From Nitrospirota bacterium (lineage in GTDB: Bacteria; Nitrospirota; Thermodesulfovibrionia; Thermodesulfovibrionales; SM23-35): a stretch of 10,134 nt of DNA. The number at the start of each line of letters is the position of its first letter. Position 1 is the first letter of the stretch. Where the stretch lies: the NCBI GenBank assembly GCA_029883145.1, contig JAOUJR010000039.1, forward strand, positions 1-10,134. Direction: 5' to 3'. The notes under the pieces are model-generated. The model was not told the DNA's origin and made no database searches. It saw only the letters and a program-made list of their open reading frames with translations. Position numbers and translations under genes: made by a program. Below are positions 245 through 3,714 of the stretch, piece after piece.

Positions 245-883
245 ATGCTTCTTGTTGGACTGACAGGTAATTATGGGATGGGGAAAAGCACTGTTCTTCC
301 CATGTTCAAAAAATTTGGCGTGGTTACTATTGATGCTGATAAAATTGTTGAATCCCTCCTTGATGAGAAGAATGTTCTCGAAAAGGTCAGGGGGCTCTTA
401 GGTGATAAGGTATTCGATAAAGATGACAGTCTCAACAAAAAAAAGGTTGGGGAGGTAATTTTTAAAAATGATATGTTAAGACATTCTCTTGAGGATATCC
501 TTCATCCTCTTGTATTTCAAAGGGTAAAAAACTTTTTGGAAAAGATGAACGGAAAAAATAAGATCGCAATGATCGAGGTACCGTTGCTTTATGAGAGAGG
601 ATATGAAGATAGGTTTGATAGGACGATTACAATATATACAAAACAGGAAATTGCTTTGAATCGCCTGAAGAAGGATGGAGTGGATAGGGAAGAGGCAATT
701 CTTCGACTAAAGGCGCAGCTTCCCATTGAGGAGAAAATCAGAAGGGCTGATTACGTCATAGATAACAATGGGACGACTGAAGAGACAATGAAACAGGTTG
801 AGATAATTTATAATAAACTTTTACAAGAGACAGAAGATGGAAATAATAAACGGACTCGAGGAATTAAGAAAAAGTTATCATAA
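245..883 (+). CDS. coaE: Dephospho-CoA kinase
   Basis: Phosphorylates the 3'-hydroxyl of dephospho-CoA with ATP, the final step of coenzyme A synthesis in the cytosol. The P-loop is residues 8-15 (GNYGMGKS), a variant of the usual GGIGSGKS that still has the G-x4-GKS spacing. Asp30 and Asp32 (DAD) follow, then His87-Pro88, EVPLLYE at 111-117 in the substrate-side LID/CoA region, and ADYVIDNNG at 168-176, the typical end of the fold. The length of 212 aa is slightly above the usual ~200. The extra residues form a basic tail (about 196-212) encoded by the part that overlaps ribF. The start at 245 is the only possible one: an in-frame stop lies at 227 and the P-loop follows at once. There is no ribosome binding site, but a TATAAT sits 7 nt upstream. 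It is probably co-transcribed with ribF. Confidence 0.94.
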   Translation: MLLVGLTGNYGMGKSTVLPMFKKFGVVTIDADKIVESLLDEKNVLEKVRGLLGDKVFDKDDSLNKKKVGEVIFKNDMLRHSLEDILHPLVFQRVKNFLEKMNGKNKIAMIEVPLLYERGYEDRFDRTITIYTKQEIALNRLKKDGVDREEAILRLKAQLPIEEKIRRADYVIDNNGTTEETMKQVEIIYNKLLQETEDGNNKRTRGIKKKLS

Positions 884-1781
884 CACAGTTCTCACCATAG
901 GCAATTTTGACGGTATCCACCGCGGCCATCAAATGATACTCCTCTGGGTAATCAAAAAGGCCAAAGAGCTTGAAGGGACATCAATGGTCATCACCTTTGA
1001 GCCTCATCCGGTAAAGGTTCTTGCTCCTGAAAAGGAATTAAAGATGCTCACGACCTTCAAAGAGAAGGCGAGAATATTGGAAGCAATTGGCATAGAGGTC
1101 TTGTTATGCGTAAACTTTACGAGAGAGTTTGCTGACCTTTCCCCCGACGCTTTTATCGAGGATGTGCTTGTGAAGAAAATAGGTGCTAAGGAGGTTATTA
1201 TCGGTTACGATTATGCCTTTGGAAAAAATAAAAAAGGAACGACAGAGCTTTTATGCAGAAGGGGGAGGGAGCTGGGGTTTAAAGTCAAGACGATAAGGAG
1301 CGTGAAGCTTGATGGGGATGTGGTGAGCAGCAGCAGGATCAGAAGGCTCTTGCAAAAAGGAAAAGTCAATGAGGTTTCAACCGTTCTTGGAAGAGCGTAC
1401 TCAATAGAGGGAGAAGTTATACAAGGCACTGGCAGGGGTAGTAAAATCTTGAACGTCCCTACAGCAAATATTAAAACCCCTGACGTGATTGTCCCGAGGG
1501 AAGGAGTATATGCAGTAAGGGTTATGGCTAAGGATAGCTTCTTTGATGGGGTTGTCAATATCGGCAGAAGGCCGACATTTGGTGGTTCCGATGTGAGTTA
1601 TGAGGCGCACCTATTCAATTTTTCTGGTAATCTCCTCGGTGAAACGATAAGGGTATATTTTATTGATTGGATTAGGGGTGAACGGTCCTTCCCAGATGCT
1701 CTTAGCCTTGAGACCCAGATACGAAATGATATTGAACGAGCCAGGACAATCCTGAGCGCAAAACACCCTAAATTGATATAG
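837..1781 (+). CDS. ribF: Bifunctional riboflavin kinase / FAD synthetase
   Basis: Converts riboflavin to FMN (C-terminal kinase) and FMN to FAD (N-terminal adenylyltransferase). The nucleotidyltransferase signature GNFDGIHRGHQ is at residues 22-32 with the His-x-Gly-His motif intact, and SSSRIRR at 164-170 matches the family's ISSTxIR motif. The riboflavin kinase domain (about 183-305) shows the glycine-rich segment leading to NVPTAN at 206-211, GVYAV at 223-227, NIGRRPTF at 241-248 and the E-x-H at 256-258. The length of 314 aa is normal. The ATG at 837 is chosen because the protein then begins like its relatives, with IGNFDG near residue 21; only a weak AGAGA lies upstream. It starts 47 nt inside coaE, suggesting translational coupling. 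Its stop lies inside the convergent priA gene. I see no FMN riboswitch upstream. Confidence 0.95.
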   Translation: MEIINGLEELRKSYHNTVLTIGNFDGIHRGHQMILLWVIKKAKELEGTSMVITFEPHPVKVLAPEKELKMLTTFKEKARILEAIGIEVLLCVNFTREFADLSPDAFIEDVLVKKIGAKEVIIGYDYAFGKNKKGTTELLCRRGRELGFKVKTIRSVKLDGDVVSSSRIRRLLQKGKVNEVSTVLGRAYSIEGEVIQGTGRGSKILNVPTANIKTPDVIVPREGVYAVRVMAKDSFFDGVVNIGRRPTFGGSDVSYEAHLFNFSGNLLGETIRVYFIDWIRGERSFPDALSLETQIRNDIERARTILSAKHPKLI

Positions 1782-3714
1782 GGTCAACGTCCACCTTTAT
1801 TTTCACCTCTTTTAAGTCTTTGAATGTCTCTATAAAGATTTTGGCAGCAGAGTGAAGGCTTCCGCGAATAGATGACTTGAGAAGTAATCTATACTCATGT
1901 TTTCCCTGAGTACTTTTTGATAGAGATGGTCCAAGGATTTCAACATCTTTTTTATTTATTTTTCCGATGACCCCTGAGACTTCCATTGAGATGTCTCTCC
2001 TACAGATAATTTTAAAGAGCAAAAGTTTTGAATAGGGAGGATAGGAGAGTGATTTTCGCCTGTGGAGTTCTTCGATGAAGAAAGACTGATAATCATATTT
2101 TTTTAAGTAGTTAAAGAGATAGTGTTGTGGCATCCGTGTCTGAATGAATAGTTCACCATGAGATGCGATTTTGTCAATTATGAACAGGATTTCCTGATAA
2201 GCCTTTTCAGCAGATCTGAAGTCAGGGAGGTTGAGGTAAAGGTCTGTATTTAAAAGAGCTGCCATTGAAAATCCATCAGTAATGCCTAACCTTTTTGTCA
2301 TAAGTTTTGTCCCGATTATTATTCTTACATCATTCCTGTATGTTGCTCCGATTAACTCTTCTATGTCTGACCTTTTCTGTGTCATATCACTGTCAAGCCT
2401 GAGAGTTTTTATCCCGAGGAGTTCTTCAATACCTTCCTGAACCCTCTGTGTACCTGCACCAATTAACTCCATGGTATAGCCTTTGCATTTCTGACATATT
2501 TCAGGAATTCGTGATACTGTGTATTTGCAATAGTGGCATTTCAGAGACATCTTCTGTTTGTGGAAAACAAGGGGAATTCCACAATCAGGGCATTCTTCAA
2601 TATTGTGACATTCACTGCATTGAAGAAGGGTTGAATGGCCTCTTCTGTTTATCACAAACATTACCTTTTTATCATTCTTGATATATCTTGTAGAGGCATC
2701 AATAACGGTCTTTGAGAGACAAGGCTTCGGGAGTTTTTCATATCTCATGTCTATTATTTTAATCCTGGGTTTTTTCGTTTCTCCTGCTGATTTTAAAAGG
2801 GTGTATTTGCCAGATCTGCAATTATAGAGTGATTCAATGGACGGGCTTATAGATGAAAGGAGCACAGTAGCCTTTTCGAGATAGCCTCTCATTACTGCAA
2901 CATCTCTACCACTATACCTGAGGCCGTTCTCCTGTTTGTAAGAACTGCTGTGTTCGCGGAGGACCGCAATGAATGAGACCTTTTTCAAAGGGGCAAAGAC
3001 AGCAGACCTTGTGCCAAGCATAATATCAGAATAGCCTGATGAAATTCTTTCAATTGCCTCTGACCTCTTTCCCCTGCTTAATCCACTGTGGAAAATACAT
3101 ACCCTTTCTCCAAACGTATCTTTTAAAAGAGGATAAAGGTTATCGGCATAGGAGACTTCTGAGACAAGAAGGATTACATTTTTCGTTTCTGTGAGTATCT
3201 TTATCACAAAGGAGTATTCATATACCGTGGATGGGGCATGAAGTAAAAACGTCCTGTAGGTATTTTTTTGTAGTGAATCAGTGAGATTTGAAACTGTTTC
3301 ATCATTGATTGTGATAATAGGGAGCAAATGATCCTTACGTCCCTCCTTTGGGTGAGGAAAGATTTTTGTTTTTCTTGCGTGTACCTTTGTAAAGGCTTCT
3401 TTAGGAAGCATATTTTTTAAAACAATACCCTGTTCTGTCAGGTAATATTCCGACATCCACTTGAGAAGACCGAGCATCTTACTGCTCAATACCGGGGTTT
3501 CACCATGGACTTTTTGAATGTCTTTAATATCTCCAGAAGGGGCTTTAAAAGACCGTCCGATGATAATCCCTTTAAACGTTCTATTCTTAAGCGGTGCACT
3601 CACCATCATGCCTGGTTCCATGTGCTCTAAAAGTTCTTCAGGACACCTGTACGTCAGGGGGTTGAGATTTATTGGAAAGACGATATCAAAGAAATCCATA
3701 GAGGATTTTATCAT
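1768..3714 (-). CDS. priA: PriA-like replication restart protein, predicted ATPase/helicase-dead
   Basis: A 648-aa PriA homologue. Classic PriA (about 730 aa) recognises stalled forks with an N-terminal 3'-DNA-binding domain, unwinds with a DExH helicase core and loads the primosome. Seen here: an N-terminal domain with FDIVFPINLNPLTY (9-22) and the typical beta-barrel segment to about 55, and a zinc module with four intact CxxC pairs (C366/C369, C375/C378, C393/C396, C407/C410). Retained scaffold pieces include HSGLSRGKR (209-217), GTRSAVFAPL (234-243), SSYKQENGLRY (257-267), NRRGH (356-360), LNTDLYLNLPDFRSAE (488-503) and SYPPYSKL (557-564). The catalytic motifs are replaced: Walker A is APSTVYEY (160-167, Lys to Glu166), DEEH is LREH (252-255), GSATPS is SSISPS, and GRAGR is DKIAS (514-518). 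The frame is open throughout, so this is not a recent pseudogene. The ATG at 3714 gives a usual N-terminus; Met6 is an alternative. It is convergent with ribF and divergent from the TPR gene. Function as a non-enzymatic primosome scaffold is inference. Confidence 0.9.
   Translation of the reverse strand: MIKSSMDFFDIVFPINLNPLTYRCPEELLEHMEPGMMVSAPLKNRTFKGIIIGRSFKAPSGDIKDIQKVHGETPVLSSKMLGLLKWMSEYYLTEQGIVLKNMLPKEAFTKVHARKTKIFPHPKEGRKDHLLPIITINDETVSNLTDSLQKNTYRTFLLHAPSTVYEYSFVIKILTETKNVILLVSEVSYADNLYPLLKDTFGERVCIFHSGLSRGKRSEAIERISSGYSDIMLGTRSAVFAPLKKVSFIAVLREHSSSYKQENGLRYSGRDVAVMRGYLEKATVLLSSISPSIESLYNCRSGKYTLLKSAGETKKPRIKIIDMRYEKLPKPCLSKTVIDASTRYIKNDKKVMFVINRRGHSTLLQCSECHNIEECPDCGIPLVFHKQKMSLKCHYCKYTVSRIPEICQKCKGYTMELIGAGTQRVQEGIEELLGIKTLRLDSDMTQKRSDIEELIGATYRNDVRIIIGTKLMTKRLGITDGFSMAALLNTDLYLNLPDFRSAEKAYQEILFIIDKIASHGELFIQTRMPQHYLFNYLKKYDYQSFFIEELHRRKSLSYPPYSKLLLFKIICRRDISMEVSGVIGKINKKDVEILGPSLSKSTQGKHEYRLLLKSSIRGSLHSAAKIFIETFKDLKEVKIKVDVDPISI

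Follow-up and report, generated by a model that had tools for sequence, protein, structure and literature searches.

A PriA homologue without ATPase motif residues, kept by selection across an apparent order of Nitrospirota, is probably a fork-recognition pseudohelicase

Why should a bacterium keep a full-length gene for the replication restart protein PriA after the catalytic residues of its motor have gone? The question is raised by a 10,134-nucleotide stretch of DNA (hereafter the window), contig C265 in a 444-contig metagenome-assembled genome (MAG) of 86.6% completeness. A priA-like gene occupies positions 1768..3714 of its reverse strand and was read as 648 codons from the ATG at 3714 with zero internal stops, so the coordinates, residues and uninterrupted frame given by the first-pass annotation were correct. 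The 648-aa product matched TIGR00595 over model positions 18-509 of 509 with 368 bits, above the curated cut-off of 230.35, and thus belongs to the PriA (primosomal protein N') family; its best similarity to solved PriA structures in the PDB reached E 6.7e-71. Profile search identified the 3' DNA-binding domain (3'BD, residues 11-104, 3403..3684; PF17764, E 1.8e-19), a Zn-ribbon in the cysteine-rich region that carries the eight zinc cysteines (residues 366-410, 2485..2619; PF18319) and the PriA C-terminal domain (residues 588-645, 1780..1953; PF18074, E 1.5e-6), all encoded on the reverse strand. The neighbouring gene, ribF (837..1781, forward strand), is convergent with priA, and the 3' ends of the two genes share 14 bases (1768-1781). 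Among named relatives, the nearest four (70-88% identity) are MAGs that carry the labels Nitrospira sp., Thermodesulfovibrionales bacterium (two) and Nitrospirae bacterium. Judged from these labels, the window apparently belongs to the order Thermodesulfovibrionales of the Nitrospirota (hereafter the order), in agreement with the earlier view that the lineage lies outside Actinobacteria.

The window protein resembles canonical PriA (E. coli and other orders of the class) in domain order, zinc cysteines, 3'BD and C-terminal domain, but canonical PriA retains a complete ATPase and the window protein does not. In the PriA alignment, APSTVYEY (residues 160-167, 3214..3237, reverse strand as for all motifs here) takes the place of the Walker A sequence GVTGSGKT, with Glu166 aligned to E. 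coli Lys230. Walker B is lost, as LREH (residues 252-255, 2950..2961) aligns to DEEH. Meanwhile SSISPS (residues 287-292, 2839..2856) aligns to GSATPA of E. coli motif III, GTKLMTKRLGI (residues 468-478, 2281..2313) to motif V, and DKIAS (residues 514-518, 2161..2175), followed by a deletion of the second Gly-Arg, to GRAGR of motif VI. The alignment bears out each of these replacements as first described. The statement that every helicase motif is erased holds for motifs I, II, III, V and VI and the Q-motif, but not for motif Ib (GTRSAVFAP, residues 234-242, 2989..3015), motif IV (NRRG, residues 356-359, 2638..2649) or E322, the third residue of DEEH, which are kept. The Walker A Lys, the DExH Asp/Glu and the motif VI Arg expected of an active SF2 DNA helicase are all missing.

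The same erasure is common to all 73 PriAs sampled from the order. They were aligned with 18 sequences of clade B, a second motor-less PriA clade described below, and with a comparison set of 67 from other orders of the class, other members of the phylum and E. coli (158 PriAs in total). K230, D320/E321 and R584/R587 were all present in 66 of the 67 comparison PriAs, a set skewed to high TIGR00595 scorers with loci taken best first; the exception was L128. Within the order, neither the acidic pair D320/E321 nor the arginine pair R584/R587 occurred in any sequence (0/73 each). Position 230 was Lys in one sequence and Glu in 62; D320 and G545 of motif V were each kept in 1%, and R587 was gapped in 72/73. 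E322 was retained in 72/73, and the eight zinc cysteines, reported earlier for the window, were found there and in every PriA aligned (73/73 order, 18/18 clade B and 67/67 others).

Among the 146 columns with at least 90% conservation in the 67 comparison PriAs, a column was scored as lost in the order when the canonical residue fell below 20%. By this measure 21 of 22 ATP-site columns were lost versus 21 of the 124 columns elsewhere (Fisher p 8e-13, for ATP-site positions picked post hoc and adjacent columns that are not independent). The bias of column loss towards the ATP site is not due to chance. R688 and R380, both outside the ATP-site set, are also lost, and hence some other PriA functions have changed in the order. 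The linker from the 3'BD to Walker A, where E. coli has its winged-helix domain, is short in the order, but this was rejected as part of the loss: its median is 46 aa there and 48 aa in intact relatives, many of which also have a short linker.

Loss of catalytic residues in a MAG of 444 contigs could reflect a decaying pseudogene or an assembly artefact, and the window copy does carry private changes, for instance S185 in place of a Pro kept in 97% of the 73 sequences. However, the reading frame is full length, and pairwise Nei-Gojobori dN/dS of priA within the genus of the window was 0.152, 0.171 and 0.189. Three further pairs from the order gave 0.102-0.230, and the motif-equivalent stretches of the genus pairs gave 0.18-0.31; one intact sister pair gave 0.123 and another was saturated. 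As these values are far below 1, the priA of the order is kept by selection, rebuilt cleft included. It is under purifying selection, as had been proposed for a PriA without catalytic residues. An artefact is further contradicted by the identical state in 73/73 PriAs of the order, including those of the single-contig genomes G024, G030, G033 and G040. Purifying selection together with the order-wide spread rules out both a pseudogene and an artefact.

An intact copy elsewhere in the cell could still supply the motor. Each of the 61 order genomes searched, of which 56 reach 90% completeness or more with contamination of 5% or less, contained one PriA locus. An intact second priA, named by the first reading as a find that would refute it, was not found in the window's own genome either (86.6% complete), where the other matches obtained were partial and below the cut-off. 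These weak matches fell on contig C403, a 680-aa frame on C160 and a 664-aa frame on C20. C403 was dismissed as a hidden PriA, its matching contig and frame being RecG. The C160 frame was dismissed as well, since it matches the RecG model in the manner of the ~1,040-1,100-aa frames of relatives; we infer that it is Mfd-like. A class-wide search with TIGR00595 at E 1e-30 gave matches in 65 of the 66 genomes of the order and in 49 of the remaining 54. Matches in the order started at model position 13 or later, without the Walker A part, and scored 156-377 bits, with 55 of the 65 genomes exceeding the cut-off; full-length matches in other orders started at position 1 or 2 and mostly scored 570-640 bits (498.6 in G064). 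Cut or split matches outside the order were seen in G070, G081, G097 and G112. At E 1e-20 no PriA match was obtained in G137, G144, G186 and G220 (93-99% complete), possibly owing to assembly gaps.

The former P-loop has been replaced in the order by a stretch of the form HAPSxxYExS, modelled as a short turn and a helix from residue 163. Its conservation, with Glu in 62 of 73 sequences, implies that the P-loop stretch does something, and this might be ATP binding through a re-invented site. Such a cryptic motor is nevertheless very improbable, as the Q-motif Gln, the Walker Lys, the Mg-binding Asp, the catalytic Glu and both motif VI arginines have been lost jointly. A compensating pair of Glu230 and Arg545 was also considered and is suggestive at most, Arg or Lys being found at 545 in 51 of 62 rows with Glu and in 6 of 11 others. 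As a whole, the AlphaFold2 model of the window PriA has a confident PriA fold which is nearest to fork-bound PriA.

The earlier claim that the N-terminal DNA-binding domain is kept requires qualification. The domain is recognised by PF17764, and Y22, G35, Y91 and G96 are kept in 73/73 order PriAs; F16, R31 and F36 of intact PriAs, on the other hand, are replaced. F16 has become Leu in 71/73 and F36 in 59/73 (window residues 20 and 42), fixed or near-fixed changes which may indicate an altered 3'-end pocket.

Given these consistent replacements in the 3'BD, PriA might have left replication restart and moonlight as a DNA- or protein-binding scaffold, with another system performing restart. Searches with PriB, PriC and DnaD models, which gave no match over the cut-off, can be read in the same direction. 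Yet this protein is the sole PriA found, and it keeps the zinc module, the DNA-contact motifs and the fork-bound-like fold. Moreover, these searches did not recover the partners from intact sister lineages either, which makes their absence unspecific. We thus regard a role outside restart as unlikely. The PriB-model matches, below the cut-off in 59 of 61 genomes and absent in two, are presumably SSB. In the window's own genome, DnaB was represented by two contig-end pieces below the cut-off, and DciA was not found at 86.6% completeness.

Other helicases were considered as the missing motor. RecG was rejected as a universal stand-in, since 10 of 55 order genomes (6/7 in family f3, 3/4 in f4 and one in f7) lack RecG over the cut-off, as do 3 of 26 others (all f15). 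PcrA/UvrD was rejected as a discriminating motor, with matches in both groups (61/61) and none over the cut-off. RecG matches below the cut-off, of Mfd-like or partial type, were the only ones in several genomes of 95-100% completeness, namely G021, G033, G044, G053, G119 and G130 (f3), G022, G034 and G054 (f4), and G062, G065 and G068 (f15). In seven f10 genomes (G028, G040, G058, G078, G080, G087 and G128), recG and priA are encoded on opposite strands, ~3 to 4 kb apart.

With a probability of roughly 80%, we consider the PriA of the order to be an inherited pseudohelicase, a platform for fork recognition and DnaB recruitment that has no ATPase of its own. This reading is drawn from sequence: the Q-motif and motifs I, II, III, V and VI are replaced, the zinc module is kept and the relatives searched yielded no intact copy. 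The protein would bind abandoned forks or D-loops through its 3'BD, its cysteine-rich region and those DNA-contact motifs that remain. It would then recruit DnaB, directly or with DciA, and would leave the lagging arm wound; if that arm needed clearing, another helicase or a nuclease would do so. The ATPase would have been lost once, in place and no later than the base of the order, and the former ATP cleft would then have settled as the new conserved structure HAPSxxYExS.

The genomic position of priA bears on this history. Convergent priA and ribF were found in 31 of the 61 first and 6 of the 12 further order loci (37/73), and also, of the 38 loci from elsewhere in the class, in four (L068, L075, L080 and L089), all motor-intact; the window PriA thereby shares an orthologous position with intact sister PriAs. 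The other 34 class loci outside the order showed no ribF within the short flanks examined (~1.5 kb or less, as for all synteny here). As the order shares the ribF neighbour of priA with these four intact sister loci, the motor was probably eroded in place at an ancestral ribF-adjacent locus. In PriA trees built with the motif columns omitted, the order formed one side of a branch with support 99 (starred), and 100 in a second tree. It grouped with intact orders of the class at support 93, not starred, after eight long rows were removed, and was not joined to them in the tree with these rows included. The tree and the spread of the motor-less state point to this single loss of the ATPase, by the base of the order at the latest.

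Clade B of the same phylum (L145-L162, including G174, G245 and G214; families f29, f31 and f36), which may represent Nitrospira and its kin, also formed one side of a branch, with support 94 and then 99. All 18 inspected members have lost the catalytic Lys and the motif VI Arg pair, and 16 lack the acidic pair, which the other two keep alone. Among the conserved columns, 17/22 at the ATP site were lost, versus 18/124 others. Clade B PriAs are longer than those of the order (median 766.5 aa), with a longer linker before the helicase domain, and their AlphaFold2 model is closer to the apo and ADP forms, unlike that of the window PriA. Could both groups share a single loss, spread by horizontal transfer? 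An AU test with the order and clade B as one clade does not reject this (p 0.351). On the other side, the best tree joins the order with intact orders of the class at the support of 93, not starred, given above; ribF adjoins priA in the order and four intact sisters but in none of the 18 clade B loci; and Lys230 became Glu in the order but Arg in clade B (15/18). A shared loss is therefore improbable, and on taxonomy and synteny the two groups likely lost the motor separately. Family f14, from a different order in the class (L128, L177, L178 and L179), provides a graded case, in which G061 and G070 retain Walker A with an altered motif VI, and G064 is without Walker A and keeps DEEQ. In L177 of this family, the linker preceding the helicase domain is interrupted by an in-frame stop. 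Motor loss in PriA thus looks recurrent within the phylum, given the order, the second clade and the graded case.

UniProt notes that helicase motifs are absent in actinobacterial PriA. The PriA of Tsukamurella tyrosinosolvens (L181) resembles that of the window in its lost ATP motifs, the gap at motif VI and the remnants of motif Ib and RRG, but is far more distant in sequence (21.4% identity with the window protein; 128 bits with TIGR00595, below the cut-off). Its record, NZ_LR134460.1, is a 360 kb 'plasmid 18' which carries coaBC-metK-priA, and these housekeeping genes suggest chromosomal DNA. The actinobacterial PriA orthologue has been characterised as 'smaller and very divergent' (PMC1193525).

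The helicase motifs of PriA have been presented as well conserved, with Deinococcus-Thermus as the notable exception (PMC4504706). D. radiodurans PriA is a pseudohelicase by experiment, with no measurable ATPase and negligible unwinding; its binding of single-stranded DNA and forks differs by no more than about two-fold from that of E. coli PriA, and it forms a complex with DnaB (PMC4504706). Its motif I GKT has Arg for Lys, and motifs I and II match poorly (PMC4504706). The window PriA likewise has Walker A and B lost, and no intact PriA was found in the cell, which is the sequence pattern of a D. radiodurans-type pseudohelicase. It comes from another phylum, and unlike the D. radiodurans protein (as described in that paper) it has lost the whole P-loop, the Q-motif and motifs III, V and VI. 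Fork binding and DnaB recruitment were demonstrated for D. radiodurans PriA and are, for the window PriA, predicted from its sequence. No motor-less PriA from Nitrospirota was reported among the titles and abstract openings listed from the open-access literature. Hence the PriA pseudohelicase is a kind already known; its order-wide extent, its completeness and the apparently repeated loss are new.

For annotation, TIGR00595 labels the window protein 'replication restart helicase PriA' despite its lost motor motifs. A single phylum with a motor-less order, a second such clade and a graded case offers natural experiments on which parts of PriA are indispensable, and the purpose of the PriA helicase becomes testable by comparison of sister orders. 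That the motor was lost and the gene preserved suggests that the lasting job of PriA is the marking of broken forks, not the unwinding of DNA.
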